Origin: Polytrichum commune
Lineage: Eukaryota; Streptophyta; Polytrichopsida; Polytrichales; Polytrichaceae
NCBI GenBank assembly: GCA_950295325.1
Contig: OX485803.1
Span: forward strand, 11,656,001-11,720,000
Length of the DNA stretch: 64,000 bases
Reading direction: 5' to 3'
Shown here: positions 1-63,330 of the stretch, piece by piece
How positions within the stretch are numbered: the stretch's first letter is position 1
Layout: each line of letters starts with the position of its first letter
Translations under genes and position numbers: made by a program
The notes under the pieces: generated by a model
What the model saw: only the letters and a program-made list of their open reading frames with translations
Databases searched by the model: none
Told to the model about the DNA's origin: nothing

Positions 1-398
1 GTGACTTACCACTTGAAAGGGTCTTTTGTCATTCTAATATGAAACTTATACTTGGTTTGTTTATTTATAATAGTTTAATTACTGCCTTCTACTTTCACAA
101 GTATTCATGCATATTCAAACTAATTCGACATGATTGAAGTAATATATCATAATTAATTATGGTATAAGCATTTGATATATAATTAGGCTTAATTGCCTTG
201 GTAAGCATTTGTTCCTGATTTTATTATATTTAATCAGGCTTGATACACTTAAATTCATTAACTCAGCTTAATTAGTTCAAATATGTATGAATAATTGTGA
301 AAGTAGAATGCATAATATAATATATTAAAAACTAAACATATAACAATAATATAAGTTTTTTTAAGAATGAAAAAAGACCCTTTCAAATGGTAAGTCAC
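1..398. repeat. Foldback (long imperfect palindrome) element
   Basis: The first 27 bases, beginning GTGACTTACCACTTGAAAGG, recur as reverse complement ending at base 398. Inner segments also pair: bases about 90-125, containing CTACTTTCACAAGTATTCATG, match 270-310 in inverted form. The whole stretch therefore folds back on itself, as expected of a MITE or foldback transposon. The window edge falls at the left terminus, so no target duplication can be checked. No coding capacity is seen. Confidence 0.75.
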
Positions 399-1896
399 AT
401 ACATTATAATCTCAATGCTAATGAGAACTTTGTAATATTTAGTTTTTATTTCCAAATTCATTACATGCTTTATTAACATCCATTTACATGCTTTTGGTTT
501 CACTCCGATGAAACCCCAATCAATTGTTTATTTCCTAAGGGGAAGTGAACATATATATTGAATCTTGGGCTTTTTTTGCAAGGGCGTTTTTTTTTTAAAA
601 AATTGGGCGTAGCAGGCAAAAGTTGGTTGAGACGGAAAAAAAAGATGGAAAAAATTATACAAAAAAACTAAAAAAAAAACTGATGGGATTGCGTCGGGTG
701 CCGGATTGCAAGTTCCAGCCTTGAGACCTCCTTCCCCCCATGACGGGGTCATGACTCAGCTGGATGGGGCTCGTCCAAATGGCATGAACTCTAGCCCCGA
801 GTTGGGTGAACCAACCCATACACTTGTTCCTTGTTGGATGCCTAAACCCTTGCCTCCAAGAAACTGTAGTGTACGGGTTGATTCGCCCCAGCCCTCTAGC
901 CCCACCCCAAATTGGCAACACAAATTGCAATAAATTAGTAAATGATGTACTGTAACAAAGCCTCGAAATATCCAGTGCCAAATGAACTGTGTTCAATAAT
1001 GGTGAGACCTGGAAATACTGTACAGTTCGAAGGTGAACTATGAGGTTAGTTTCCCCAAATGGAAATATTATTTTTAGGAAAAACTCATGTCAAGTTGTAG
1101 CTTGCCCTTATAGGGAATAATATTTAGTTGGTGAAGAATGGAATCTCGATGGGCTGCTTGTCCATAATAGTTTTTTACTGAAGCCCAGTTGATGGAAGTT
1201 AATGATGAACATACTACCAAATTAAATGAAACAAGTTGATCTCAGAAACCAAAAGAAGTAAAAGATTTGTAGAATGAAGAGAAACACATGAGATTATAGA
1301 ATAGGAAGAGAGAACATATTTTGAATAAGAAAATAATGCACACATGATAGGTATAAGAAGGGAATTTTAAGGATTAAGAAAGCAAAGTGATTTCAAAGAA
1401 GTAATTTTCTCTCCAAAAAAATGAAGGTCTAGATAATGAGAAATAAAACATATAATGGAGATGAAGGAGAAGAAGAAGAGGAATTTTTTAAGGTCAAAAT
1501 AAAATTGAGAAGCAAAATACTCTCAAAGATGTTGAATATCAAAAGAATAAGTACAAATGAAGATCTCATAAGAAAAGAAAAACAATGAAGAAGTGGAGCA
1601 AAGCTTGGGCATGGCGATTACAAAAAGGAAGAGTAGCAATACAATACCCTATTAGTAATTGATGTGGCATGTGAAGGGGCAAGGATGAGGAGGGTTCCCA
1701 CGTGACCGCAAGTTGGCATATAATTGCAAAGTCAACATCCTAGTACTAGCTTAGGGTTTTTTAGGATTCTCCAACATGCATGTATTATTATCCCACACAA
1801 GACATGAAACCATCTTGTTGTTTATTGCCTAAATTGATTGTAATAAAATTGGCATTATCATTGATGAGATGAAAGAATTCAAAATGAAAATTACAC
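399..1896. other. Intergenic DNA, no gene recognised
   Basis: No gene is supported here. The stretch contains a T-rich and A-rich segment (570-680), the small hairpin listed separately at 803-888, and a purine-rich AAGAGAA-type segment at about 1240-1600. Short ORFs on either strand show no recognisable motif and are probably chance. Confidence 0.6.
803..888. repeat. Short hairpin element, copy 1
   Basis: Two arms (about 803-833 and 857-888) around AACCAACCCATACACTTG pair imperfectly with each other. The same hairpin occurs at 16493-16576, with the central loop in the opposite orientation. Finding it at two unlinked places suggests a small mobile foldback element. It could also be a hairpin small-RNA source; that is not shown. 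Confidence 0.6.
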
Positions 1897-1898
1897 TA

Positions 1899-3445
1899 CA
1901 GTGAAGAACAACATTGAGTACTCACTTGAGAACTTCAATTTCGGCAAGCAATCTCTGGCGATTGAAATTTGATATCATTGAAGTAATTAAGCAAAGTATG
2001 TGTACAAAATAGTCTTCTTCATGTATGTAAAAAGAAAAAATTAAAATTTTTATTAGGGATTATGAGAATAGCCATGTCAAAGCGGCTAGGGTTCATAGAC
2101 TCAATTTTGTTTGGAGCCACCAACTGAACTTCAATTTTCATTTGCATACTAATTTGTGGTCAATTTCGTTAGATCATTAGTGCATTGTGACACTTTGTAG
2201 TTGGAGATTGTGTAGTAATGAGCATTTGTGCAATTGCTTATGTATGCCTTGTTTATCTGCGTCGCGAAAGCTCCAAGCAATTGAGCAATTTCGGAATGGC
2301 AATTCAACACAAAAAGTTGCGGATGCAATTGGGATGAGTCAATCTTGGGTAGTTAGGCTTAGAAAGGAGATCGCAGGGGAGCTTGAGAGGCAAAAAAGAG
2401 GGCACCCAAGACACCTTTAGTTATTGTGAGAGAGAGGCGGAGATGTTTCACCTTGCTTATGGAAGGGCGTTTGGGAGTTGCATCAAAGGTGGCAACAAAG
2501 ATTTGAAATGAATTAGGTAAAAATGTGTCTGATGTAGTTGTGAGACGTGCTTTGCGATGGGAAGGTTTCGCTGCACATGTGCAACAGAAGAAGCCGTTGT
2601 TGACAAGAAGACATGTTCAGGCACGGGTGAGGTTTGCTTGTAGGTATGCAAATTGGACCGTTCATGATTGGAAACGCGTTATTTTCAGTGATGAGACAAA
2701 GATAAACAACTTTAATTCTGATGGTAGGTCCTGGTGTTAGATAATAGATGGAGAGCATGTACAACCACAACATGTACAACCACAACATGTCCAACATATC
2801 ATGATTTGGGGTTGCATGACAGTTTTTGGACCTGGAGCTTGGCATAGGATTGAAGGTATAATAGATCAACACATGTACAAATGTATTTTGGAAAACTAAG
2901 TTATTGTGTTTCAATAGGATAATGATCCAAAACACACAAGTAAGAGGTAAAATGGTTGAAATTGCAGCCATTCCAACTTCTCCAGTGGCCTGTTCAATCA
3001 CCACATGTGAATCCCATGGAGCATTTTTGGGCTCTTCTCAAACATCATTTGAATAAATTTTCTACACCTCCACGAGGAATTGAAGAATTGTGGGAGTGTG
3101 TGTGCATTGTTTATTCTAATTTTAATGAAGAGGATTGTATGGCACTATATGAGAGTATGCCGCGAAGGATTGTTGTTGTATTGGCTGCTAAAGGCTATTG
3201 GACAAATTATTGAAGTTCAAAAAAATAGATTAAACAATATTGAGTACTTGTATATGGTTGGTGATTGTAAATTGTAGAAGATTATCTAGTTTTCAATTTG
3301 ATGTATAAATTTGCATATATATATATACATACCTCTATTTGTTTTTTAACTCACTTTTTAGCTTTGCAAAAAAATATCTACATTGTCTATAATGGCTTGT
3401 CGAAGTTGGCTTCTTCAACAAAGTACTCAATTTTGTTCATCACTG
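1899..3445 (+). mobile_element. Tc1-like (Tc1/mariner superfamily) DNA transposon, full length, inactive
   Basis: The element starts CAGTGAAGAACAACATTGAG and ends with the inverted match to CAGTGATGAACAAAATTGAG. The inverted termini stay similar for roughly 55 bases. Both ends are bordered by TA (1897-1898 and 3446-3447), the known target of Tc1/mariner insertion. The 1547-bp length suits the family. Inside lies one broken transposase gene. Terminal CAGTG is common in Tc1 elements. The element is complete in outline but cannot move itself, because its gene has several stops and frameshifts. Confidence 0.88.
2187..3213 (+). pseudogene. Tc1-like transposase (DD34E type), broken
   Basis: Three open segments read as one degraded transposase. 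The first (2245-2420) is a helix-turn-helix region: an AIEQFRNGNST segment, then GMSQSWVVRLRK, ending in a basic GHPRHL stretch. The second (about 2525-2740) has the RVIFSDETKINNF block with the first catalytic Asp. Further on come MIWGCMT and DNDPKHTS (second Asp), and a third segment (2956-3213) with SPHVNPMEHFW (catalytic Glu) and a C-terminal ESMPRRI block. The second Asp to Glu spacing is about 34 residues after allowing for one lost base near 2950, which fits DD34E Tc1 rather than the DD39D mariner-like elements usual in plants. Stops at about 2738 and 2898, plus frameshifts, kill it. The C-terminal ESMPRRI motif recalls fungal Tc1 proteins; that comparison is from memory. Confidence 0.85.
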
Positions 3446-4355
3446 TAGCTATGAAAATATTTGAGTGCCACAAATCCCCAACCCCCATCCTCCCTCAGCA
3501 CAATAATACGACAGAACCCCTCCACACCACCACTGGGCACCCTAATCTCATACATCTCCTCCTTCAAATTCAACCATTGGAAAGACAAATGGGGAGCCCA
3601 AAAACACACATATACCTTCAACTGCCATTGGCAATCTATACCACACCACTACTCAAAATAGGTTGCACAAACAACCCTACTAAACCGGACAACATCCTCT
3701 ACAATCACAACTTATCCCTTATAACTCACAAAACACACAAGCCATCAAAAAGTGACGAAGTTGCGGAGTGTCATAGTAAAGAACACCATGGATTTGCGGA
3801 GCAAGAAGTAGAAGAATGTTTGTTTATGAATGGCACATCAAGGTGAATTTTGGTAATGAATTATTGAATTGTCCATAGAATTTCTTATCATTTGTTCGCT
3901 TGAATTCACATCATTGAGCTTGTGAAAAATATTTTTAAATTTAATTTTAAAAGAAATTCAATCAAAAAATAAAATAAAAAAGAGAGAAGAGGAGAGGCGG
4001 AGGAGCCCCTTCAAGAGCTCCTGTTTCGGGCAGCTAAGCTGCTGCAGCTGGTTGGCCCCCCCTGCTTCCTCCTTCCCTCCCTTGTACTTCCCTCCCCCCC
4101 TAATTAGGCCCCACCCCTCCAGCTACCTACCCCTCAACTCCCCCCCACCAGGCAACAATTGTGGGGGTGGGAAAACTTTTATTTATTTATTTATTTTTAA
4201 TTTTTTTGGATAACCAAATATTTGAGTTGGTAACAAAAAAATTATTTAAAATAAAATACAATAGATTCACATATTGAAGGGAGGTATTCCAAAATCTTAT
4301 TGGTTGGAGGTACTACTCTTGGGTTAATGAAAGACACATTTTTGCAAGAGCACTT
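3446..4355. other. Intergenic DNA with a purine/pyrimidine-skewed block
   Basis: No gene is recognised. Open frames at 3298-3846 on either strand have no family signature. The segment 3980-4165 switches from a purine tract (AGAGAGAAGAGGAGAGG) to pyrimidine runs rich in CCTCC and CCCCC, flanked by A/T-rich tracts with TTTA repeats (4180-4200). It could be a small repeat insertion, but no target duplication was found. Confidence 0.5.
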
Positions 4356-4419
4356 TTGCCAAGGTTTTTTTCATTAATCAAGAAAAAAATTGGGGGCTCG
4401 AAGACAATCCGATACTGGT

Positions 4420-4640
4420 GTTTACAAATTGAAATGCCTTATAGAAAATTAAGATTTTTGGGGTTCGGAAGATGTGGAGCATCGCAAAAGAAGTTCACAA
4501 GAACATCCGGGAACATGCGAAAGGCGTGGGATTGCAGCGAATTTAGGATTGGCTTATTTTTTACGCACACACCTCAGATGACAGGGGCTGGACCACATCT
4601 TATAACTCACCAAATCCGCAGGAACAACTTATTTGTCTGA
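4420..4640 (+). pseudogene. Possible gag tail of the gypsy relic
   Basis: A weakly open stretch reads KFTRTSGNMRKAWDCSEF and continues directly toward the protease segment without a gap. It lies where the end of gag is expected. No CCHC zinc knuckle is intact. The assignment rests mainly on position and on continuity of coding texture. Confidence 0.4.
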
Positions 4641-5319
4641 TGTAGCTGGTAGGCTGGCTCGCGAGTGCCGCGGCATTCGACCTGGTGTCATGCGTATGGT
4701 GAATGATATCAACACTTTGGTGGTCAGTCGGGTTGGAGGCAATCCCATTCGGGTTGCGCCCCAATGTGTGATGATGGATTCGGGGGCACAATTAGTTATG
4801 ATCAGCAAAAGACTTGCCTATGAACTACGGTTTACGGCCGACGACTTGGCTCCTTGCCCATTTACCATCGTCACCTTTATTGGCCACGTGGAGCGGGCCA
4901 CTCATTACATTCGGGAGCCACTGCAGCTTAGCTTTCACGTGAAGCGTGGAGATCCACCCGCATTTCTTCTTCTCAGATGTAAGGTGACAGATGCAACCAT
5001 CTACGATATTTTAGTTGGTCAGCAAGCACTCTACTCCCTCAGTTTTGGTTTGGACAACTGGACTAAGGAGGCTTGGATCCGACTAGGTTGGTTGGCTGGA
5101 GATGGCTACGTGGAACTTATTCCTGTGGCATTTTCGGCGGCCACGACCATAGCACCATTATCCAAGGTTTTTGGATATGATGTTATTGTGGATACATTGC
5201 CACATGCTTCCGCATTATTAGAGGATTTATTGGTATTCATAGAGAGTGCTGAGGATCAACGGGAGATGATACCTAAGGGTGCATTGGTGCGCCGTTCCAA
5301 GGATCCTCTTCCTCCCTAG
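4633..5319 (+). pseudogene. Gypsy-type aspartic protease domain
   Basis: This 228-codon open frame contains the retropepsin active-site triplet D-S-G (codons 4777-4785) in the context MMDSGAQLVMISKRLAYEL. A hydrophobic flap-like section follows, then YDILVGQQALY, which resembles the second conserved ILG block of retropepsins. In the family the enzyme cleaves the Gag-Pol polyprotein inside the particle. It lies directly upstream of the methyltransferase-like region and would have been translated as one polyprotein with it. The frame is open, but the neighbouring domains are broken, so no active product is expected. Confidence 0.75.
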
Positions 5320-5454
5320 CGCGATTCCGCCAAGCTATTTCGGAGGTGTGAGAACACTATCCTCTCTCTTAGTTCTACAACACTACCCACCCGTGACACC
5401 CCATCGGCGTTGGCACATCCTATTTCATGGCATCCGCCAGATGAGGGGATCACT

Positions 5455-6425
5455 TTGGTAGAACTGTTTGGGGACATTGGGACATGATTCGCAGCTATGT
5501 TGGAGGATGGTCTCACAGTTCAACAGTATGTCTATGTGGATGACAATCATGTGTCCACCATTTCCACAAGTTGATGGTGTTGTATCCGCAATAGTTGGAT
5601 CCAACTGCCATTCGTGAGTATTTTGCACGTTTCCCTCGTGATGTTACACTTGTCAGTGTAACAAACTTACGCAGATTGGATCCCGTGGATCAAGTCATCG
5701 TAGGATGCCCATGCCAAGGCCACTCACGTGTTGGAACCGACTGAGGATCCGTCCAATCCTACACGTGGTCCTGATCTAGTTTTTTTGGGGACCTCATCCG
5801 GTTCATGCAGTGGCGGTATGTCCACCAACCTTCCCCTTTAGGATACATATTCAAGAATGTATCTTTGTTGGGAGATTTTCGAGACAAGGTGTTGGAAGCC
5901 AAACATTATGTTTGTCAGCACATAATGGGATCCCATTTTTGTGGATGCCGCGAGCTTTGGTTCTTATTCCCACCGGCCTCAGTGACTTGGTGCAACCTCG
6001 CACCACTATCCACTTTAGCTACATCATTTTTTGCAGTGCCTCCACTTTCTGATCAAAAGGTGGATGACATCTTGGATCCACACCGGATTACTTTGTTGGT
6101 TGTTCGAGATGATCTACCCCCGTTGGCATTGGTCAACAAAGTAGGAGCACCACGGAGGACCTTCCCCACCAAGTTTATGACTTTTCCACAGTCATTTGTA
6201 TTCCGCAATCGAGGGTCTGACATGGTGTTGGATGATCACACCAAACCCATACCAAGCCATTAGCTGACGAATGGGAGCGTGTCATGGAATTTTGTACAAG
6301 CATCACATGAGCTTCTAGCCTTTTTGAGGGCCAACGGCGCTTCATGTTGGGCCAAATCATGAATCTTAATATTATGGTGTGGACTGTCGGTTTATGCCTT
6401 GCATTGCAATGGCATCATAGTGACC
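5455..6425 (+). pseudogene. Cytosine-C5 DNA methyltransferase-like domain inside gypsy pol (broken)
   Basis: Between protease and reverse transcriptase the translation, followed through several frame changes, shows the ordered motifs of C5-cytosine methyltransferases. LVELFGDIGT (codons 5455-5484) resembles SAM-binding motif I. DPVDQVIVGCPCQGHSRVG resembles motif IV, with the catalytic P-C-Q at codons 5709-5717. GYIFKNVSLLG (about 5841-5873) matches the motif VI F-x-E-N-V block, but the catalytic Glu is replaced by Lys (codon 5853-5855). VDAASFGSYSHRPQ (about 5943-5985) fits the motif VIII region, and GQIMNLNIMVW (about 6351-6385) a motif X-like end. The span of roughly 320 codons fits a bare catalytic domain. 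A TGA sits right after motif I (5485-5487), with further stops and shifts, so the enzyme is dead. In the family, such an enzyme transfers a methyl group from SAM to cytosine in DNA. Its role in a retroelement is unknown; self-methylation or control of host silencing is speculation. Confidence 0.75.
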
Positions 6426-6778
6426 AGTTGTTGTTTCTCGGGGCAGAGAACCCTAGTCAGGGGGCACAACGGTCCACATCCATGGAGGAGGAAATTGAAG
6501 CCATGGTTGGAAGAGCCGAACAAATCTCTCGATTTGAGCAGCAGGTGATGGAAGAGCTTTAAGTTCAACGGATTTTAACTTCTTCAGCTTCTTCGCCTCT
6601 GGTGGTGGCTTCATCATCACATATTGGTGGTGATGAAGAGAGATCAGATTCTATTGTTGGCACTGGGGTTAGGGGCATGGTGCATGCCCCCTCCTCTCAG
6701 TAGGAGTTAGAGTATGTGCCAGCATCAGGTGGTTTCACTTTGGTGGAGAGGGAAACCACAGAGTTTGACGATTGACCA
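6426..6778 (+). pseudogene. Linker between methyltransferase-like domain and reverse transcriptase
   Basis: An open segment continues from the methyltransferase-like end with an acidic, probably helical stretch (EEEIEAMVGRAEQISRFEQ) and a low-complexity serine-rich part encoded by 6580-6700, then joins the reverse transcriptase. One in-frame TAA (6560-6562) and a TAG near 6703 interrupt it. No domain is recognised. It looks like polyprotein spacer. Confidence 0.5.
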
Positions 6779-7610
6779 TTGGAATTAGGCCCTCATCTCA
6801 CCGGTACTGAGGTATGGAAGGTACGAGCGTTCATTCGCTCGTACCATAGATGTTTTGCTTTCAGCCTTCAATATCTTGAAGGCTATAAAAGAAAACCCAT
6901 CCACATTCAGTTGGAGGATGACCATCCTATTTTTCGGAGACCTTCCAGGCTTAGTGTTTCCGTGAGGATTGGTGTCCAAGCTCGTTGCCAAAAGATATTG
7001 GCAGCAAGGTTGATCAAACTCTCTAACAAGGAATATGTTTGTACTACAGTTATGCCATCAAAGAAGAATATCTTTGGCAATTGGACGGAGAAGCGGATGT
7101 ACGGGGATTACTGTCTAGTTAACCGGAAGACCAAGTCGGATCGGTATCCCATACCAATTCCGGAGGAGTTGTTTGATGCCATCGGATTTTCTTGAGTCTT
7201 TAGCACCCTAGACTTGAGATTCGGCTATCACCAGCTCTTATTATTTTTGAGAGATCAAGTGAAAACCGCATTCTAGGGAGTTGATCAAGATGGGAAGGAT
7301 CAACTGTACCATTGGAAATTTCTTCCATTTGGCCTCAAGAATGTACTTGTTGAATTTTAGAGAGTAATGGACCATGTCCACTTTGGCTTGCCCTTTGCTG
7401 AGTGTTATATTGATGACTTGATCACCTTCAACAAGACACCACATGACCATGTAAGACATATGCAAGCCATTTTTAAACGGTTGCGGCAGTGGGGATTGCG
7501 CTTGCACCATGGCAAGTGCAAGTTTTCCTATGACCGACTAGCATATCTAGGTCATATGATTATTCCATGAGGTTTTGGGATGCAGCAAGCTAAGGTGGAC
7601 GTTTTGTAAA
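6779..7610 (+). pseudogene. Ty3/gypsy reverse transcriptase domain
   Basis: The fingers and palm can be followed through DDHPIFRRPSRLS, MYGDYCLVNRKTKSDRYPIP (the DYR.LN-type block), LDLRFGYHQLL, FLPFGLKNV and the active site ECYIDDLITF, with Y-I-D-D at codons 7406-7417. The connection toward RNase H follows (HGKCKFSYDRLAYLGHMI). The catalytic Asp pair is still present, but stops (for example after IGFS near 7195 and at 7274) break the frame. In the family the enzyme copies the genomic RNA into cDNA in cytoplasmic particles. Confidence 0.88.
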
Positions 7611-7619
7611 AGATCCCGG

Positions 7620-8265
7620 CACCGGTCGATGTGCCGAGACTTCGTGCTTTCTTGGGCTTGGCGAATTACTACTGTCGATTTGTTAAAAACTTTAGTTTGA
7701 TCGCCAAGCCTCTCACCATTCTCACGAGCAAGGACCAACCTTGGACTTGGGTTGTGAGCAGCAACATGCATTTGAGACATTGAAGCAGAGACTGGGTGCG
7801 GCTCCAGTGCTTCGACGTCCGAATGTCTCCAAATTCTTCCAGTTTCATACAGGCTGGAGTTCATTGGGTTTGGAAGCAATTCTCACTCAAAAAGAAGACC
7901 ATGGTCGGGAGTATGTTGTTACTTATGCTTCGCAAAACATCAACACTGTGAAGGCCAATTATTCGTCTTACGAGGAAGAAACGTTGGCGGCGGTGTGGGC
8001 TATTGCCCATTTCCAGCCATATTTCTATGGTTAGCGCTTTACTTTGGTGACTAACCATCAGCCTTTACGGTGGCTCATGGAGTTGGATAAGCTTACTAGC
8101 AAGCTCGCCAGGTGGGCTTTATTGCTCCAGGAGTATAACTTTGAGGTGATACACCGTGCCAAAATTACCAATTTGAATGCAGATGGACTCTCATGCAATC
8201 CAAATCCTTTAGATGAGGACTTGACTGGGGCGAGGTGGCATGGGGATTGTGTAATTGAGAGGCGG
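7620..8265 (+). pseudogene. Ty3/gypsy RNase H domain
   Basis: The segment begins with a connection-type block (RAFLGLANYYCRFVKNF) and continues with QHAFETLKQRLGAAPVL, VTYASQNINTVKANYSSYEEE, LAAVWAIAHFQPYFYG and, after a stop at 8032-8034, TNHQPLRWLME and AKITNLNADGLSCNP. These are the usual Ty3/gypsy RNase H landmarks. Coding likeness ends at about 8262 with EDLTGARWHGDCV. No integrase zinc finger or DDE block follows, so the relic is truncated here. Confidence 0.85.
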
Positions 8266-8300
8266 TTCCAGGTTGACATGCAACTACTTACCTCACTTTG

Positions 8301-8629
8301 TTTTCTAGCGTTGCTGTTGATGTGTTGTTTATGTGTGTTTTTGCCATGTTTTAGTTGTATTTGTTAATGGTGGTTTGTACTCAAGCTGCAGTGACATACG
8401 ATCGTTGTTTACACGACAAATGTTTACATTTTAAAAAACTAATATAAACTTTGAAGTAAATGCAGATTTTTAAAAAAATGCTCTATTGTTCAGAGGAAAA
8501 TTTGATAATAGATGTGTTAGTTTCATTCAATTTACATTTCCATCCATTGTTGTCATATTATGATAGTTCCCAATGACTTATATATGCAAAAGAAGCCTAT
8601 TTATTTCATGATTTATATATTTGTGTATG
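8301..8629. other. Short AT-rich spacer, nothing recognised
   Basis: This lies between the truncated gypsy relic and the hAT element. It is AT-rich, with no open frame worth reporting and no repeat that I can match elsewhere in the window. Confidence 0.6.
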
Positions 8630-27358: not shown

Positions 27359-28358
27359 GTGAAATACTTAAGGCGGCGTCATCAATTCATCTTAACGTGA
27401 ATAAAAAGCTCCAATTTCCAGATCACAAGACTGAAGTAAACAACTTCGAATGAGCTTTCCGGCTAAGAAAAGGCTGCTTGCTTCAAATTCTCAAAACTGC
27501 CCCTCAAACTAACAAAGGTTGACAGTTATAGAAATCCTCCATTCTTGCCTCATGTCGAGGAACAGATGGCAGAGTCGGAGCTCCAGGAATAAAACCTCCA
27601 TTTTTAAACCATGCTCCCTCCTTTGCAAACAAGGCTCATGACTACATAGCTAGATAGCGTCAGCGTCCATGGTCTGAAGTCCGTGTTTTCGGAACCAACT
27701 TTTAGGCTAAGCTGAAGTCAAGCGGGAGGGAGCAATAACGTTCTTAAACGAGAACAGCAGTGGAATCATCTCTCCTTCTCAGCCGTTACAACATTTGTTA
27801 TCTTCACTCCGACCATGTCATGCATCAAACCAAACTACGTCGCATCTTACAACACCACCACGTTACTCAAGTGGTACAAATATGTTATCGTGCACTCATC
27901 GAGCTCTCAGACATCATATTTCGACAGAACAGACCGAATCTATTTCTGTGAGCCAAGCGATTGCTGACGAAGATAAGCCAGGCCCAGAGACAACCAGGAA
28001 AGGCTTTCGCTTTATTGAAGGAACAAGGGTGATGCACTTATAAATCACCATTGCACCAAAGAATGATTATTCCGAACAGTCCGAGCACTGAGTTGACCTC
28101 ACAAGGAGTGTTCAGACTCTGCATATTCAATTCACAGTCGCCAGGTGCATTGTTGCACACTATCAACGTCCTAACCATAATTCAATCTTGATTACATACC
28201 ATACACGCGAGCGCCTCGATAATGCGTGAGCTTCGAAATTCACTCGACCTCGATCCTGCTGCGGTCGGCACCACATTCCGTTGCACGCAATTCCCAGAGA
28301 ATAAATCACCCAATCTTAGACACAGTGAAACAGTTTTGGCTTCAGACGTATAGTCCAT

Positions 28359-29138
28359 CTAGTGGCCGTATCCGCACATGCCCATGTTGCACTTCACGCC
28401 CTTAGGACATTTCTTCCCGCAAGCTCCGCAGTTCTCCCTGTCGCTCTTGTGGACAAACTTGCATTCTCCCTTGCAACACACGGATCCGAAGTGGCACCTC
28501 TTTCCCCACTTACCGCAGTTCTGGTTGGTGCTGCTCCTGCACTTGCCCTTGCAGCAGAAGCTGCCACTGCCGCACTTCTTTCCGCATTGCCCGCAGTTGT
28601 GGCTGTCGTTCTTCAAGTCGGAGCACCTTCCGTGGCAGCACGTCTGCCCCCCCTTGCCGCAGGACTTCTTGGACCCGCATTGGGGCTTGTGCACTGGGGG
28701 CTTGTGTACTGGAGGCTTGTGCACAGGGGGCTTGTGGCTCTTCACTTTCTTGCACTTGCCGCTCTTGCAGACGCTGTTCTTGGGGCAGCACTTGCCACAC
28801 CTGCCGCAGTGCTTGTTGTTGCTGCTCAGGTTCACGCACCAATGGTTGCAGCAACCGCCATTCTTGAACCACCGGTGGCACTTGCTGGCCGACTTGCAGG
28901 TCTTGGAGCTGCTCTTCGTCTCCGTCAACATGCGAGCGGAGCCGATCGTAGTCTCATCTCCAGTAACGTCGGGGACATCTGCAACCTCCGTCTCCTCCGC
29001 AGCTGCCTCGCTTGCGTAGAGCGATTCCGATCTCTCGTCAGCAAATGCCACAGGTACTGTCTCCTCGACTGCCAATGCAACCTGCAAGAAGAGCAGGGCA
29101 CTCAACAATGCCAGCACCAACACACCAGATTTCGCCAT
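28359..29138 (-). CDS. STIG1-like secreted cysteine-rich protein (left-arm copy)
   Basis: The gene is a single exon of 259 codons. Residues 1-23 form a classical signal peptide (MAKSGVLVLALLSALLFLQ then VALA), followed by an acidic, probably disordered spacer (about 24-75). The rest is cysteine-rich: a first module about residues 80-130 (CNHWCVNL, NKHCGRCGKCCP, SVCKSGKC), a short KPPVHKPPVHKPPVHKP proline-rich linker (about 137-152), then a second module to the end with HNCGQCGKKC, CCKGKC, CCKGECKF and ENCGACGKKCP. These motifs are those of the Stig1 family, secreted apoplastic peptides known in angiosperms from stigma and pollen-tube signalling. Usual members are near 130-160 residues with one Cys-rich domain, so this protein is long and two-module. 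A TATA-like sequence and the start region are shared with the right-arm copy, and the predicted proteins are identical. Its ligand role here is unknown. Confidence 0.88.
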   Translation of the reverse strand: MAKSGVLVLALLSALLFLQVALAVEETVPVAFADERSESLYASEAAAEETEVADVPDVTGDETTIGSARMLTETKSSSKTCKSASKCHRWFKNGGCCNHWCVNLSSNNKHCGRCGKCCPKNSVCKSGKCKKVKSHKPPVHKPPVHKPPVHKPQCGSKKSCGKGGQTCCHGRCSDLKNDSHNCGQCGKKCGSGSFCCKGKCRSSTNQNCGKWGKRCHFGSVCCKGECKFVHKSDRENCGACGKKCPKGVKCNMGMCGYGH

Positions 29139-29271
29139 AGTGTCCGACGAGGTGTCTGGACTGATGAACGCTGCAAGGAGTCTCAGTCTCTCAGCCGCTA
29201 CTGCATACGGCTGGATAAGCCTACCTGAGCGCCTGTTACACTGAGTGCTAAAGTTTGTGCAGTCGGGAGGG

Positions 29272-29279
29272 ATTATATG
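29272..29279 (-). promoter_or_regulatory. TATA-like element of the left STIG1 copy
   Basis: On the minus strand CATATAATCC lies about 135 bases before the ATG, followed by a leader of plausible length. The same element is kept at the same distance in the right arm. A TGACGT motif (bZIP-type) lies about 60 bases further upstream in both arms. Confidence 0.55.
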
Positions 29280-29716
29280 GCCTGGACCTGGGTCATCAGA
29301 TTTCGCTTGAAAGATGGAGGCTCTACCCTACGTCATTATTAATTTAGCCTCCCTTCGTGCATTGGCGCCTAGTCATTCCGCGCAGGCAGCTATAGGCAGC
29401 GTCCTTATAATCCCCCGCCTGTGACAATTGATATCATCCGCAACTTTGAGAGCTAGAAAGTAGGAACCCACGCCTAAATCTGGCCTTTGGGAATCGCTGT
29501 AAGGCCTGACCCTCGGCCTTTCTTTGCAAAACTCACCTACCCTCCCGAGCAGATTTACCTCGTGCGCAATGGCGAGTTCTTGCTGTCCGTCGAGGTCGGT
29601 ACCTGCTTTCGTCTGCTGAAGAATCAGACTGCGGCAACTTCGACCAAGATTAGTATTTCCATGATCGGTAGTGTATCATCTTCATTCAAATAGCGAGTGA
29701 TTCCATCGAATAAGTA

Positions 29717-30093
29717 CACTACACATGATATTTAGTGTCACCAATTCTAATTGTCTTGCTCGATACTAATTCTAAACCGCAGGGTAGTGTCGCCAACACT
29801 AAATGTTAATCCAACCTTATTTGTCATTCCTTGTAATTTTTGGGGGATTAGAGATTTTACAGTGTTGCAATTACAGTCACATACCAAATTATTTTTCATC
29901 CAAATTTCAATCATCCATGATAATATGTCATCACAAGTTTTGGACAAGAGAAAGTAGGGTTTTGGCCAATGGAGGAGCTCATCCATCATCCACAAGAATA
30001 TTTGTTCACTCATTCATAAGAAGTCTCATCCGCAAAAGTTACCATAGTGACATAAAATACCACATGACACTAAATATCATATTTAGCGCAGCA
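29717..30093. mobile_element. CACTA-like non-autonomous element, left-arm copy
   Basis: It starts CACTACACATGATATTTAGT and ends with a decayed GTGTAGTG-type terminus (GCGCAGCA). Perfect internal TGATATTTAGTGTCA inverted repeats lie near each end. CACTA ends are diagnostic of the EnSpm class. Related copies are at 34705-35052 (right arm), 49768-49949 (partial) and 51773-53672 (interrupted). There is no coding. Confidence 0.6.
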
Positions 30094-30364
30094 ATACGCC
30101 CCAACGGCACCCGGATCCCATTCAACCCCAACCGGGCAAGCGAGGAGAAGAACAAGTAAGTAAGGACCGGACGTCAATTACAAACTCAACAATCACACTG
30201 TAAAGAAGTGATTGGATGCAGCTTACCTATTTGACTTCTCTGGACCATCCCCAGTCGACGTAGACCAAGGAGTCTTTGAAGAAATGGCAGAAATAATACT
30301 GCGAGTAACAAATCGAGTAACAAAAACTAAATTCTACCTCACACAAGCATCGGAGGAAGGTCTA

Positions 30365-32729: not shown

Positions 32730-33548
32730 CTACACGCGATCCCACCCACAACGTTCCATATGTTCCTGTTGAGCTATGAGTCGCGTATATATTCCTGAGA
32801 GTGGCCCAGAGAGACCGTACTTACACTTCACGCCAAGATGACAATTCTCCCCCCACGCGCCACAGTTCTCCCTGTCGCTCTCGTGGACGAATTTGCATTC
32901 TCCCTTGCAGCACAAGGTACCGAACTTGCACTGCTTTCCTGAAGTACCGCAGTTGTGCTTGTTGTTGGGCTTGCACTTGTCAAAGCACCAGTAGCTGTCG
33001 TAGTCGCACTTCTTCCCACATTGCCAACAGTTGAGGCTGTCATTCTTCAAGTTGGGAGCACCTTGAGTGGCAGCACTTCTGGCCCTTTTGCCGCAGAGGA
33101 CTTCTTGGAGCCGCATTGGGGCTTGTGCACTGGGGTCTTGTGGCTGCTCACGTTCTTGAACTTGCCAGTCTTGCAGACGGTGTTCTTGGGGCAGCACTTG
33201 CCACACCTGCCGCAATTCTTGTTGTTGCTGCTCAGGTTCACGCACCAATGGTTGCAGCAACCAGGCGTCTTTCACCACCGGTGGAACTTGTCGGCCGACT
33301 AGCAGGTCTTGGAACTGCTCGTCTGCCAACAACATGCGGCTGATTGACCCGGTAGTTGCCTCGTCGTCCCCGACGGTCACTCCTGTGTCGTCACCAGCTG
33401 CCTCGCTGGGGTAAAGTTGGGCATCATTCTCCTCGACTGCCACTCCAAGGTGCCAGGGGTAACACAAAAGACCTCCCGCTCCGATCCATGGCCTCTGATT
33501 GACGCCGGTCTGATCAGAAGTGCGACTGCGAGGAGACAAGAAATTCAA
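32730..33548 (-). pseudogene. STIG1-like third copy, frame-scrambled
   Basis: The nucleotide sequence follows the STIG1 genes of the arms, but the signal peptide is lost: the frame begins with MNFLSPRSRTSDQTG instead. A net 2-base deletion near 33312 throws the first Cys module out of frame, a 2-base insertion near 33097 restores it, and a further 1-base deletion and insertion pair (about 33090 and 33060) follows. The C-terminal module (NCWQCGKKC, CCKGECKFVHES, ENCGAWGENC) is in frame but has lost several Cys. The last residues are replaced by an unrelated 25-residue tail. The whole 272-codon frame stays open, because the alternative frame used in the middle (about 33100-33310) is also open in the intact genes. 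Without signal peptide and half its cysteines it is most likely a pseudogene. It reads on the same strand as the left-arm copy. Confidence 0.8.
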
Positions 33549-34433
33549 TTCCTTGCACCTACAGGTTCCAAAGTACCAAGAGAATTATGATGATCACGAG
33601 CACTCATATGCATGACTTGGGAGATGTTTATTGAGAAACCTGTGCATGCTTAATCATCTATTCGGAATAGGTTTCACCGTTACAGATCTCAAGGTTGTAT
33701 ATTGTTACATTTCCGTCCCCATATAAGTCAACCTCTACCAGGCTGGCAATTAACGCCTTCACCGAATGTGCACACTTCAGTAGTACTATAAAAACATTCG
33801 ATTGATCAGGTGCCACACACCTGCACTTGAATGCTTTCCGATAGTTTAGTGTCCCCTATTCAAATTCCTACGTGTGATCTGACTTGCAGAGAACACACAA
33901 CTACTTTAAGGGGAGGTAGAACCCCTTGGTCAGACCACATAAAAAGTACCAAAGAATCAAGTAATTAAAACCCCGTTGAAGAAAATCCACTAAGGAAAAC
34001 CCACTAACCCATCAAGTGACAAAGTAGCCAACTACCTACATACATTGTAGTTTTCAATTCCATGTGATTTTCATTCTAACATTCCTAAACCCCACAGGTA
34101 TTTCATGTCCATGTCTGTCACATCCTCTGACATACGCTATCTATCCATTATGATTTGTCAATTTTTCGTTGTTCCTTACATAATAACAGTGTCCTAGTTA
34201 AATGTCAATCCCATGCTCCATCGGAGATAGCTCTTGACCTAGTCATAAACATGAGCCTAGTCATAAACCGTTTGTAGTGTTTGAACTCAATGAGGGGTTG
34301 TATCATGCCAAACATATCCCTAAAATCCCCATGACTTCCAACCAAAGTCCATATGAGATGGACTATGACGGGGTTAGACACTCTCATTAACCGAAAGGTT
34401 GTCCACGGGGTTGTTCAAGCCCGTCCAGGCTTG
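33549..34433. other. Spacer of the STIG1 inverted repeat, inner part
   Basis: No gene recognised. The bases just upstream of the third STIG1-like copy show no clear match to the promoters in the two arms, so that copy probably lacks the arms' promoter. Confidence 0.45.
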
Positions 34434-34704
34434 TAGACCTTCCTCCGATGCTTGTGTGAGGTAGAATTTAGTTTTTGTTACTCGATTTGTTACTCGCAGT
34501 ATTATTTCTGCCATTTCTTCGAAGACTCCTTGGTCTACGTCGACTGGGGATGGTCCAGAGAAGTCAAATAGGTAAGCTGCATCCAATCACTTCTTTACAG
34601 TGCGATTGTTGAGTTTGTAATTGACGTCCGGTCCTTACTTACTTGTTCTTCTCCTCGCTTGCCCGGTTTGGGGTGAATGGGATCTGGGTGCCGTTGGGGC
34701 GTAT

Positions 34705-35052
34705 TGCTGCGCTAAATATGATATTCAGTGTCATGTGGTATTTTATGTCGCTATGGTAACTTTTGCGGATGAGACTTCTTATGAATGAGTGAACAAATAT
34801 TATCGTGGATGATGGATGAGCTATAGTCATGAAACTTGTGATGAAATATAGTCATGAATGATTGAAATTTGGATGAAAAATCACTTGGTATTTAACTGTA
34901 ATTGCAACACTGTAAAATCTCTAATCCCCCAAAAATTACAAGGAATGACAAATAAGGTTGGATTATCATTTAGTGTTGGCGACACTATGCGGTTTAGAAT
35001 TAGTATCGAGCAAGACAATTAGAATTGGTGACACTAAATATCATGTGTAGTG
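34705..35052. mobile_element. CACTA-like non-autonomous element, right-arm copy
   Basis: Mirror copy of 29717-30093. The GTGTAGTG terminus at 35045-35052 is intact, the other is decayed (TGCTGCGC). Indels near 34820-34860 separate it from the left-arm copy. Confidence 0.6.
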
Positions 35053-35138
35053 TACTTATTCGATGGAATCACTCGCTATTTGAACGAAGAAGATACACTA
35101 CCGATCATGGAAATACTAATCTTGGTCGAAGTTGCGGA

Positions 35139-35233
35139 AGTCTGATTCTTCTTCTTTTTTTTGAGACAGAAGGCCAACCGCCAACGCCAAGATCAAAAGG
35201 AACCAAAAAGGAAAACGCGCAGTCTGATTCTTC
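35139..35233 (-). mobile_element. 5'-truncated LINE tail insertion with 13-bp target duplication
   Basis: AGTCTGATTCTTC occurs at 35139-35151 and 35221-35233, enclosing 69 bases that read, on the minus strand, as GGTTGGCCTTCTGTCTC followed by an A-tail. The left arm has a single AGTCTGATTCTTC and no insert, so the insertion happened after the arms formed, or was lost from one arm by conversion. Confidence 0.9.
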
Positions 35234-35413
35234 AGCACACGAAAGCAGGTACCGACCTTGACGGACAGCAAGAATTCGGCATTGTACACGAGGTAAATCT
35301 GCCGCCGGAGGGTAGGTGAGTTTTGCAAAGAAAGGCCGAGGGTCAGGCCTTACAGCGATTCCCAAAGGCCAGATTTAGGCCCGGTTTGGTAATCTGGCCT
35401 TTGATATCAATTG

Positions 35414-35454
35414 GCCCGGTTGGCCTTCTGTCTCAAAAAAAACAAAAAAAAACA
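35414..35454 (+). mobile_element. Very short LINE tail insertion
   Basis: GGTTGGCCTTCTGTCTCA and an A/C tail are inserted between ATATCAATTG and AATTGTCACAGG. The left arm has the uninterrupted GATATCAATTGTCACAGG. The short repeated CAATTG or CAAATTG is the likely target duplication. Confidence 0.75.
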
Positions 35455-35603
35455 AATTGTCACAGGCGGGGGATTATAAGGACGCTGCCTATAGCTGCCT
35501 GCGCGGAATGACTAGGCGCCAATGCACGAAGGGAGGCTAAATTAATAATGACGTAGGGTAGAGCCTCCATCTTTCAAGCGAAATCTGATGACCCAGGTCC
35601 GGC

Positions 35604-35611
35604 CATATAAT
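35604..35611 (+). promoter_or_regulatory. TATA-like element of the right STIG1 copy
   Basis: CATATAAT lies 134 bases upstream of the ATG, within GGCCATATAATCCCTCCCG, conserved in both arms. TGACGT lies at 35549-35554 upstream. Transcription would start roughly 30 bases downstream. Confidence 0.55.
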
Positions 35612-35744
35612 CCCTCCCGACTGCGCAAACTTTAGAACTCGGTATCGTAGGCGCCCAGGTAGGCCTACCCAGCCATATGCAGTAGCGGCTGAGAGACTGA
35701 GACTCCTTGCAGCGTTCATCAGTCCAGACACCTCGTCGGACACT

Positions 35745-36524
35745 ATGGCGAAATCTGGTGTGTTGGTGCTGGCATTGTTGAGTGCCCTGCTCTTCTTGCA
35801 GGTTGCATTGGCAGTCGAGGAGACAGTACCTGTGGCATTTGCTGACGAGAGATCGGAATCGCTCTACGCAAGCGAGGCAGCTGCGGAGGAGACGGAGGTT
35901 GCAGATGTCCCCGACGTTACTGGAGATGAGACTACGATCGGCTCCGCTCGCATGTTGACGGAGACGAAGAGCAGCTCCAAGACCTGCAAGTCGGCCAGCA
36001 AGTGCCACCGGTGGTTCAAGAATGGCGGTTGCTGCAACCATTGGTGCGTGAACCTGAGCAGCAACAACAAGCACTGCGGCAGGTGTGGCAAGTGCTGCCC
36101 CAAGAACAGCGTCTGCAAGAGCGGCAAGTGCAAGAAAGTGAAGAGCCACAAGCCCCCTGTGCACAAGCCTCCAGTACACAAGCCCCCAGTGCACAAGCCC
36201 CAATGCGGGTCCAAGAAGTCCTGCGGCAAGGGGGGGCAGACGTGCTGCCACGGAAGGTGCTCCGACTTGAAGAACGACAGCCACAACTGCGGGCAATGCG
36301 GAAAGAAGTGCGGCAGTGGCAGCTTCTGCTGCAAGGGCAAGTGCAGGAGCAGCACCAACCAGAACTGCGGTAAGTGGGGAAAGAGGTGCCACTTCGGATC
36401 CGTGTGTTGCAAGGGAGAATGCAAGTTTGTCCACAAGAGCGACAGGGAGAACTGCGGAGCTTGCGGGAAGAAATGTCCTAAGGGCGTGAAGTGCAACATG
36501 GGCATGTGCGGATACGGCCACTAG
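35745..36524 (+). CDS. STIG1-like secreted cysteine-rich protein (right-arm copy)
   Basis: The predicted protein is identical to that of the left-arm gene (259 residues): signal peptide 1-23, acidic spacer, two Cys-rich Stig1 modules joined by a proline-rich VHKPP linker. The linker is encoded by near-identical 18-bp repeats (about 36148-36198). The ATG is the first in the leader after the TATA-like element. The 3' region is conserved too, with a likely polyadenylation signal AATAAA near 36867. Alternate-frame and opposite-strand open frames of 123, 213 and 315 codons overlap the gene; they follow from its codon composition and are not counted as genes. The two genes diverge outward from the spacer. 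Identical proteins and silent sites, set in diverged inner flanks, point to recent copying or gene conversion. Confidence 0.88.
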   Translation: MAKSGVLVLALLSALLFLQVALAVEETVPVAFADERSESLYASEAAAEETEVADVPDVTGDETTIGSARMLTETKSSSKTCKSASKCHRWFKNGGCCNHWCVNLSSNNKHCGRCGKCCPKNSVCKSGKCKKVKSHKPPVHKPPVHKPPVHKPQCGSKKSCGKGGQTCCHGRCSDLKNDSHNCGQCGKKCGSGSFCCKGKCRSSTNQNCGKWGKRCHFGSVCCKGECKFVHKSDRENCGACGKKCPKGVKCNMGMCGYGH

Positions 36525-37234
36525 ATGGACTATACGTCTGAAGCCAAAACTGTTTCACTGTGTCTAAGATTGGGTGATTTATTCTCTGGGAATTGCGTGC
36601 AACGGAATGTGGTGCCGACCGCAGCAGGATCGAGGTCGAGTGAATTTCGAAGCTCACGCATTATCGAGGCGCTCGCGTGTATGGTATGTAATCAAGATTG
36701 AATTATGGTTAGGACGTTGATAGTGTGCAACAATGCACCTGGCGACTGTGAATTGAATATGCAGAGTCTGAACACTCCTTGTGAGGTCAACTCAGTGCTC
36801 GGACTGTTCGGAATAATCATTCTTTGGTGCAATGGTGATTTATAAGTGCATCACCCTTGTTCCTTCAATAAAGCGAAAGCCTTTCCTGGTTGTCTCTGGG
36901 CCTGGCTTATCTTCGTCAGCAATCGCTTGGCTCACAGAAATAGATTCGGTCTGTTCTGTCGAAATATGATGTCTGAGAGCTCGATGAGTGCACGATAACA
37001 TATTTGTACCACTTGAGTAACGTGGTGGTGTTGTAAGATGCGACGTAGTTTGGTTTGATGCATGACATGGTCGGAGTGAAGATAACAAATGTTGTAACGG
37101 CTGAGAAGGAGAGATGATTCCACTGCTGTTCTCGTTTAAGAACGTTATTGCTCCCTCCCGCTTGACTTCAGCTTAGCCTAAAAGTTGGTTCCGAAAACAC
37201 GGACTTCAGACCATGGACGCTGACGCTATCTAGC

Positions 37235-37404
37235 TATGTAGTGACGGGCCTACTTTGCAAACGAGGGTGCATGGTTTAAAAATGGAGGTCTTAATCCTGG
37301 AGCACTGACTCTGCCATCCTATGTAGTCATGAGCCTTGTTTGCAAAGGAGGGAGCATGGTTTAAAGATGGAGGTTTTAATCCTGGAGCTCCGACCCTGCC
37401 ATCC
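37235..37404. repeat. 85-bp tandem duplication at the outer end of the right arm
   Basis: Units 37235-37319 and 37320-37404 each run from TATGTAGT to CTGCCATCC. They differ at a number of positions. The left arm has one unit. The unit is part of dispersed repeat R2. Confidence 0.88.
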
Positions 37405-37447
37405 GTTCCTCGACATGAACTAAGAATGGGGGACTTCTATAACTGTC

Positions 37448-47439: not shown

Positions 47440-48290
47440 TGTTTTTGTATACAATACCTTATCCCTCCTCTTATCTTTAAAATGTTAAATGATGATAATT
47501 ATGGATAGACTATCTTAGTTTTGTATATTAGAGATAATATGTAAAATAAAAGGATAAGGTATACTCAGGAAATGAATAGTTTCTGACTATATTCTATCTT
47601 ATAAACTTCAATTATATGATATTTGTGATCGATACCTTATCTATATACTTATCTTCAAAAAAAAATTATCATAAATATGGATAAGGTATCGTTATGTGAC
47701 ATTTTGAAGATAATATAAAAATCAATGATAAGATATATTCAAAAATTGAATAGTTACTGACTATATCCTATCTCACAAACTAAAACTATATGATATTTGT
47801 GATCGATACCTTATCCATATACTTATCTTCAAAAGTGCAAAATGATCATAATTATGGATAAGGTATCGTTATGTTACATTTTAAAGATAATATGAAAAAC
47901 AATGATAGAGTATTCTCAGAAATTGAATGGTTACTGACTATAACCTATCTTAGAAACCTCAACCATATGATATTTATAACATAACGATACCTCATCCATA
48001 TACTTATCTTCAAAAATGCAAAATGATCATAATTATGGATAAGGTATCGTTATGTTACATTTTAAAGATAATATGAAAAACAAGGATAGGGTATACTTAG
48101 AAATTGAATAGTTGCTGACTATACCCTATCTTAGAAACTTCAACCATACGATATTTGTTATCGATACCTTATCCATATGTTTATCTTCAGAAATGCAAAA
48201 TGATAATAATGATGGATAAGGTATTCTTATGTTATATTTTATAAATTATATGGAAAACAATTTAAAAAAATTATTTATATTATAAAACAA
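47440..48290. repeat. ~177-bp satellite-like tandem array between the convergent MULE genes
   Basis: About five units are marked by ATGGATARRCTATC or GGATAAGGTATCG at 47503, 47679, 47856, 48037 and 48214 (periods 176, 177, 181, 177). Each unit contains two palindromically related parts: ATACCTTATCCATATACTTA and its inverse GATAAGGTAT, plus CTGACTATAYCCTATCT. No coding. The regular period is close to a nucleosome repeat length. Confidence 0.85.
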
Positions 48291-62229: not shown

Positions 62230-62750
62230 AAAGAATTTCATGATTATTGACAAATAAAAAACAAAAACAAAAACAAAAAAAAATTGGAGTTTGTTTGCAC
62301 CTCATGTGAAACTTGGAAGGTTGAGGGCAATGGCAAAGCTCATATACATGTGTAGATGAGTGACTTTCATGAATATTGAAAAGAAGAACAACAAATTATA
62401 ATCAGCATTTGTTTGCACTTTCTATGAGATTCTAAAGGTTGAAGGCTTCAGCTCGGCCCTTATAATGCACAGTACTAGTCTTGAAGGGCAAAGCTCATAT
62501 ACATGTAGATGAGATAATTTCATGAACATTGAAAAGAAAAATTAATGTTGGAATTCATTTGCACATTATGTGAATTTTTAAGGGATGAGGGCTTGAGGGT
62601 GGCCCTAGTACTACACATTCCTAGTCTTGAGGGGCATAGCTCATATACATGTAGAATATTAAATTCCATGAATATTAAACTAAATTAAAATAATTATTTA
62701 TTTGCACAATTTATGATTTTTTAAAGGTTGAGGGCTTGAGCTTGGTCAGG

Positions 62751-62825
<75 letters not shown>

Positions 62826-63330
62826 GTGAATTGTATGTATACGTAAAAAAAATTGAAATTGGATTTTGTTGCATTTTCTATGAAATCTTAAGGGTTGAGG
62901 GCTTAAGCTCGGCCCTAGTATGGCACAATATTAATCCCAAAGGGCAAAGCTCGTATACATGTGAATGAGAGAATTTCACGAATATTGGGGATTTTTCCAA
63001 CTAAAATAAAATCATTTGCATTTTTGTGAAATTTTGAAGATTGAGGGCTTGACCTCGGCCCTAGTACTACAAAATACTAAGTCTTGAGGGGCAAAGCTCA
63101 TATACATGTTGATGAGAGAATTTCATGAATATTGAAGAAGAAGAAAAATCAAATTCTAGTGAAATATTAAAGGTCGAGGGCTTGAGCTCGGCCCTCATAT
63201 AGTACCAATCTCGAAGGACAAAACTCATATATATATGTAGATGAGAGAATTTCATGAATATTGAAAAGAAAAATAAATTGAAATTGAAATTCATTTGGAC
63301 CTTCTATGGTACTTAGAAGGTTGAAACGTG
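62230..63330. repeat. Degenerate tandem array, ~150-200-bp unit, about seven copies
   Basis: Each unit contains GGTTGAGGGCTTGAGCTCGG (variants), CTAGTCTTGAGGGGCAAAGC, TCATATACATGTAGATGAGA and ATTTCATGAATATTGAA. Units near 62340, 62490, 62640, 62900, 63090 and 63230 are clear. No coding is seen. Confidence 0.85.
62756..62824. repeat. Compound microsatellite (AC)n(GATA)n
   Basis: About 17 AC units run directly into about seven GATA units. It lies within the ~150-200-bp tandem array and interrupts one unit. Confidence 0.95.

Follow-up and report, generated by a model that had tools for sequence, protein, structure and literature searches.

A decayed Ty3/gypsy fragment assigned to a retrotransposon lineage with its own DNMT3-type cytosine methyltransferase

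The stretch of DNA analyzed here, 64 kb in length and referred to as the window, contains a Ty3/gypsy fragment of about 3.7 kb (positions 4618-8315) that was delimited by profile searches and by tblastn against L007, an 8.2-kb stretch of a contig residing in a cyanobacterial bin (Table 1). The gypsy element encoded on L007 is 80% identical in its DNA methyltransferase (DNMT) domain to protein P0038, for which reason the stretch is taken to be contaminating plant DNA. Residues 470-779 of L007 ORF1 align to positions 4618-5547 of the window with 51% identity, and the window reverse transcriptase (RT) is 75.7% identical to L007 ORF2 over 345 amino acids. The RNase H (RH) matches PF17919 at 1.4e-25 and residues 350-516 of L007 ORF2 with 73% identity; the retropepsin-like families PF13975 and PF13650 match the protease (PR) region below the Pfam cut-off. 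PR, RT and RH are the only members of the Ty3/gypsy domain set in the window. Queries made of the first 700 residues of eight relatives found no gag in positions 1-4617. Homology ends at 8315, and integrase is missing apart from a 17-residue match at E 0.81; one 20-bp match to the 3' part of L007 lies at 8399-8418 (E 0.024). Self-comparison revealed no pair of LTRs in the window, nor in the partial L007.

Table 1. Parts of the Ty3/gypsy fragment in the 64-kb window.
Feature	Position	Strand	Frame	Remarks
Retropepsin (protease) region with N-terminal leader	4618..5316	+	1	D-S-G at 4777
DNMT piece 1, motif I (LVELFGDIGT)	5446..5559	+	1	profile 1-38, 26.4 bits
DNMT piece 2	5547..6242	+	3	profile 40-266, 151.8 bits
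Motif VIII (SYSHRPQ)	5929..5982	+	1	profile 163-180, 6.1 bits; tblastn of P0001, P0002
DNMT piece 3, preceding stretch plus motif X (GQIMNLNIMVW)	6236..6409	+	2	profile 265-322, 42.4 bits
C-terminal tail of the Gag-PR-DNMT frame	6410..6700	+	2	ends with GMVHAPSSQ
TAG, followed by GAG TTA	6701..6703	+		matches the end of the Gag-PR-DNMT frame in P0011 and many relatives
Reverse transcriptase	6716..7750	+	2	six stops; RVT_1 1.3e-19
RNase H and start of RNase H-integrase linker	7750..8315	+	1 (RNase H), 3 (linker)	

Apart from this fragment, the window features a large inverted duplication (27521-30364 and 34434-37447), the main parts of which show about 93-96% identity in self-comparison. A minus-strand frame at 28362-29327 is STIG1-like (PF04885, 3.7e-23) and has a mirror frame at 35592-36521, and a diverged STIG1-like frame (32733-33584, 9.3e-11) is situated between the duplication arms. 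STIG1 genes are known as land-plant genes, and these frames fit a land-plant origin of the window. A possible DDE_3 transposase remnant at 2944-3210 matches PF13358 below cut-off (E 0.00026), and diverged direct-repeat arrays were seen in the self-comparison at 47451-48261 and 62329-63324. Scans of the window for Rfam families (gathering thresholds) and tRNAs returned none.

The first-pass annotation had read five cytosine-C5 methyltransferase motifs out of the region between retropepsin and RT. All five are present and the neighbors are as described, with the motifs spread over three frames (frame 1 for I and VIII, frame 3 for IV and VI, frame 2 for X); the frame 1 position of motif VIII is a displacement caused by a local frame disturbance. 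The second DNMT piece contains motifs IV (GCPCQGHS) and VI (FKNV) as well as the region preceding motif IX, has three stops in aligned codons and, as a frame-3 query, is 61% identical to P0001. Five short motifs distributed over three frames are easily over-read, and Pfam reports a single match on the DNMT pieces of the window, PF00145 at E 0.0077 with 16.1 bits and thus below the cut-off of 22 bits, such that chance occurrence of generic residues in an unrelated polyprotein had to be considered. That explanation is refuted by shuffled sequences and by the relatives and is extremely improbable. Profile A2, which was built from eight relatives with none taken from the window, detects three collinear DNMT pieces, the longest with 151.8 bits as opposed to at most 2.5 bits in 100 Markov shuffles of positions 5401-6500, and when all six frames of the 64 kb are scanned, no other site scores above 2.0 bits. 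With the frame-3 piece as a query, 272 candidates yielded 37 proteins at E <= 0.01 (best E 5.8e-72, 61% identity). The profile search that had been suggested is weak with Pfam on the window itself, clear with the profile of the relatives and strong with Pfam on the relatives, where eight of ten scanned match PF00145 (E 7.7e-13 to 4.2e-7); the two that miss it, P0009 and P0011, are C-terminal fragments without motif IV.

The assignment to the C5 methyltransferases stands, with the correction that the domain is of the DNMT3 type rather than of the DRM type. In DRM enzymes, motifs VI-X precede motifs I-V. The domain order in the relatives runs from I to X and is collinear with DNMT3A in three stretches, and the same order is met in the window, though split over frames; a DRM-type domain was rejected on the grounds of this unrearranged order. 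Plant DRM2 and animal DNMT3A/3B belong to the same DNMT3 family, with the motif order rearranged in DRM. In comparison with DNMT1, DNMT2 and bacterial enzymes, DNMT3 is the closer kin of the domain, and the nearest solved structure by both sequence and fold is DNMT3A/3B.

The copy in the window is dead, partial and unable to make the enzyme. When codons are aligned to L007, two stops fall into PR, three and four into DNMT and tail, six into RT and one into RNase H, and frame changes separate the pieces. Motif VI reads KNV instead of the ENV of the relatives and motif VIII reads RPQ, while the catalytic cysteine is kept; together with the broken frames, the altered motifs mean that the DNMT of the window is not functional. 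Differences between window and L007 at the three codon positions amount to 0.41/0.31/0.61 in the frame-3 DNMT piece and to 0.17/0.12/0.49 in RT. These values fit past coding constraint, weaker in DNMT than in RT for this pair of sequences.

All 37 proteins retrieved with the frame-3 piece are nearest to P0002, P0003 or P0011 among 12 references, and they comprise 123-369 amino acids, which is about the range admitted by the search. Among 25 longer proteins (7994 candidates scored) there is no long ORF of the window's inner clade, the best being 66% identical to P0002. In 14 of these 25 proteins, stemming from the sources ena, jgi, lgn and ncbi and 1228-1451 residues in length, Gag, PR and DNMT reside in one frame. 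All 12 Gag-PR-DNMT proteins that were aligned share two invariant sets of Cys/His columns resembling zinc knuckles; Pfam recognizes a knuckle in two of six sequences scanned (P0049 and, below cut-off, P0054) and a protease in all six, often below cut-off. An alignment search yielded 157 proteins at E <= 0.001 (7998 candidates scored). Among the 120 matches listed are Marchantia polymorpha MARPO_0008s0049 (P0079), a protein from the liverwort Calypogeia fissa (P0055) and two from the zygnematophyte Closterium sp. NIES-54 (P0128, P0144). With these named members, a methyltransferase-carrying streptophyte lineage that extends into the land plants is supported at the level of the family; for the window itself, the assignment to a land plant is based on the STIG1-like frames and on its position in the DNMT tree. 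In the Marchantia gene model, the DSG of the protease is present and the DNMT match covers 301 residues of the 323-position model, and the Calypogeia protein has a partial protease without DSG. In Closterium P0144 a partial protease and a DNMT without motif IV are combined with RT and RNase H that match Pfam well; loss of catalysis within the family and an error in the gene model are both possible explanations for the missing motif. A plasmid collection gave no match, and no relative was confirmed among viral contigs with P0005 or A2 as queries. Six stretches found there with query A1 (33-58% identity over 38-101 residues around motif IV) were taken as ordinary phage C5 methyltransferases and set aside.

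Gene arrangements were surveyed in 164 sequences, i.e., 162 proteins and the two ORFs of L007. DNMT stands alone in 107 of them, and 34 exhibit a (Gag-)PR-DNMT arrangement, 15 of which, L007 included, also have Gag; in these 34 the methyltransferase occupies the same place as in the window, and the outcome named in the first-pass annotation as a refutation thus did not occur. P0037, which is one of the 34 and belongs to the window's clade, is a deletion product. In four proteins (P0056, P0057, P0128, P0144) a single frame runs uninterrupted from DNMT into RT, one is a Gag-DNMT protein, and one remaining entry is L007 ORF2. With Gag-PR-DNMT followed by RT-RH-INT-PHD, L007 as a whole displays Ty3/gypsy order. 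A second layout is realized in 16 of the 164 sequences, in which DNMT is located after RNase H or directly before integrase/PHD without RT in between; this count omits P0034, a DNMT-integrase fusion that falls into the window's clade by sequence and looks like a deletion product. In P0062, P0089, P0118 and P0122, RT comes first and DNMT follows within the same uninterrupted frame. The DNMT domains of the second layout are related to those of the first (P0058, P0061 and P0062 are 36-43% identical to P0002), and a PHD finger after integrase is also present in second-layout P0059 and P0061. A G-patch domain beside DNMT was noted in the second-layout proteins P0089 (PF01585, 2.5e-8) and, below cut-off, P0084 (0.0032). 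Plant-type retroelement sequence is filed under bacterial bins not only in the case of L007 (Synechococcales) but also in that of P0063 (Candidatus Obscuribacterales), and both likely represent plant DNA contaminating public metagenome-assembled genomes. On sequence grounds, the fragment in the window is almost certainly a decayed piece of a Ty3/gypsy element from the lineage that carries the DNMT3-type domain.

In a DNMT tree of 66 rows, which has several long branches and a bootstrap that had yet to settle completely, the window, represented by its frame-3 piece only, groups with P0003 and P0002 (100/100) as sister to clade A (100/99). Sixteen rows form a separate clade (95/99), and the second layout is found in all 11 of those with enough flanking sequence. 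The family is unrooted as the sole outgroup, a partial DNMT3A, sits at the end of a very long branch (2.7) and the matches listed include none that is named as a DNMT3 of a plant host. The tree is compatible with one acquisition of the domain or several, and with a move between the layouts in either direction.

Regional identity, computed on the 12 aligned Gag-PR-DNMT proteins, is highest in PR and DNMT. In the seven proteins of clade A, mean pairwise identity is 0.837 in PR as well as in DNMT, with gag at 0.66 and the linkers at about 0.63; in the five of clade B the values are 0.76, 0.73, 0.65 and 0.49-0.52, respectively. A host DNMT gene that had been captured by, or lay nested in, one single copy would not be part of the element at all, and the window copy by itself could not have excluded such a case. 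It is refuted by the relatives and exceedingly improbable: a single frame encodes (Gag-)PR-DNMT in 34 of the 164 sequences, and across 24 elements, window included, the distances in PR are correlated with those in DNMT (r 0.93, permutation p 0.001), even if kinship inflates such coefficients. The correlation shows that PR and DNMT travel together. Co-variation of RT and DNMT (r 0.69) was calculated for five elements only and carries no weight.

The catalytic cysteine of motif IV, the glutamate of motif VI and the arginine of motif VIII are each kept in 63 of 64 near-complete domains of relatives, a set picked for near-full length that favors intact domains. A conserved but non-catalytic domain that binds nucleic acid or other proteins would not need these residues, which renders this alternative unlikely. 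It nevertheless draws on the six of the 64 domains in which the motif set is incomplete, on P0144 and on a dinoflagellate LINE DNMT that was inactive on DNA when tested in yeast and for which an RNA substrate has been suggested (de Mendoza et al., 2018; PMC5890265).

In L007, the Gag-PR-DNMT frame (ORF1, 3-3488, its start lying beyond the contig end) is terminated by TAG at 3489-3491, and the RT-RH-INT-PHD frame (ORF2, 3492-6632) follows in the same reading frame. UAG-CAR-YYA is a context of programmed read-through, i.e., of leaky stops, and AAG TAG CAA TCA in L007, a single DNA sequence, fits it. The 100 nucleotides 3' of the stop fold with -39.9 kcal/mol (z -3.4), which none of 200 shuffles equaled. 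The corresponding TAG in the window is followed by a different context (Table 1), and the fold there is ordinary (z -0.1). Judged by eye, the ORF end is shared by 16 of 17 clade A and six of seven clade B proteins, the exceptions being P0039 and P0064, and the stop codon itself was read in L007 and the window. P0011, from the window's clade, also ends at the matching site: its residues 120-298 are 62% identical to window positions 6182-6700 and its last residues are GGMVNAPSSQ. Four proteins of the liverwort clade and 12 of clade J end in varied places. As far as seen, the shared end appears to be a trait of clades A and B. In murine leukemia virus, gag-pol is expressed through read-through of an in-frame UAG (PMC5009743), and a comparable mode of expression is fairly likely for the elements described here. 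Weighing against it are the varied ends outside clades A and B, the origin of the leaky context and of the fold in the single L007 sequence, and the eight proteins, four with DNMT first and four with RT first, in which both domains share an uninterrupted frame; the imperfect state of the Marchantia, Calypogeia and Closterium members counts against the overall picture as well.

Taken together, we consider it probable that the window holds a decayed gypsy fragment of a DNMT3-carrying lineage that operated as follows. Most ribosomes would stop at UAG and release Gag-PR-DNMT, while a minority would read through and produce Gag-PR-DNMT-Pol. Since DNMT is encoded on the Gag side of the stop, its dose in the virus-like particle would resemble that of Gag and not that of Pol, and the protease would cut it free. 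With less certainty, the enzyme would methylate cytosines de novo, probably in CG, with either the double-stranded cDNA inside the particle or the newly inserted copy as its target. A new copy might then arrive pre-marked as silent host DNA and be hidden, or the damage to the host might be limited, and the PHD finger after integrase could steer insertion to matching chromatin. The copy in the window itself is past doing any of this. Methylation of the element's own cDNA or insertions is a serious candidate that we would nonetheless stop just short of calling probable. Most gypsy elements do without a DNMT, which counts against a role of this kind. The enzyme could also be directed at the host or at rival elements (host genes, defense loci or competing retroelements) instead of the element's own cDNA. 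Enzymes linked to Gag are normally retained in particles, and such action in trans is therefore rather unlikely, although a Gag-level dose and free DNMT after cleavage would allow it and host-wide effects have been discussed for Symbiodinium (de Mendoza et al., 2018; PMC5890265).

The general idea of DNMT-carrying elements is that of de Mendoza et al. (2018; PMC5890265), who described KnitGypsy-Dnmt3 in Klebsormidium nitens and further DNMT elements in dinoflagellates, reported constraint on DNMT and, for some elements, de novo CG methylation, and proposed methylation of the element's own cDNA; streptophyte and dinoflagellate DNMT elements are also mentioned, citing that work, in PMC12344493. 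KnitGypsy-Dnmt3 resembles the elements described here, as its account gives a DNMT3-type domain without DRM rearrangement in a Ty3/gypsy polyprotein, with conserved key residues and a DNMT under constraint. By the same account it stems from a charophyte alga and has DNMT in the Pol ORF, whereas our elements occur in liverworts, Closterium and the window's clade, and those of clades A and B encode DNMT within the Gag-PR frame. L007 adds DNMT before an in-frame UAG and a PHD finger after integrase, and the term "PHD" is absent from the main text of PMC5890265. SymbioDIRS-Dnmt3 and SymbioLINE-Dnmt from dinoflagellates are likewise retrotransposons with a DNMT of their own, and the DIRS enzyme methylates CG de novo; they are DIRS and LINE elements, however, and not LTR gypsy elements, and the acquisition by gypsy is termed independent (PMC5890265). 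Host DNMT3 enzymes are generally found outside retroelements and with other partner domains (PMC12344493). Our second-layout elements (P0058, P0061, P0062, P0084, P0089 and others) are gypsy elements as well and differ in having DNMT after RNase H and before integrase instead of before RT. New to us here are land-plant members, DNMT on the Gag side, a probable read-through stop, the PHD finger and the two layouts; in a limited literature search we found no paper on DNMT-carrying gypsy elements in land plants, and priority is not claimed.

DNA methylation is a main way in which plants silence retrotransposons, and an element that carries the responsible type of enzyme thus constitutes a paradox. 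It is conceivable, though in its entirety this remains a doubtful proposition, that an old streptophyte gypsy lineage, present in Closterium, liverworts and beyond, carries its own de novo methyltransferase, that in its land-plant branch this enzyme is packaged at the level of Gag together with a PHD-bearing integrase, that copies are methylated before or at integration and that one read-through stop is the switch between dose and polymerase. The location of DNMT on the Gag side of the stop leads to a sharp, testable prediction on dose and place of action, and since land plants harbor the lineage and Marchantia polymorpha has a gene model with PR-DNMT, the question comes closer to a tractable genetic model. 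If true, such a retrotransposon would itself set the mark that silences it, in contrast to the arms race usually seen.
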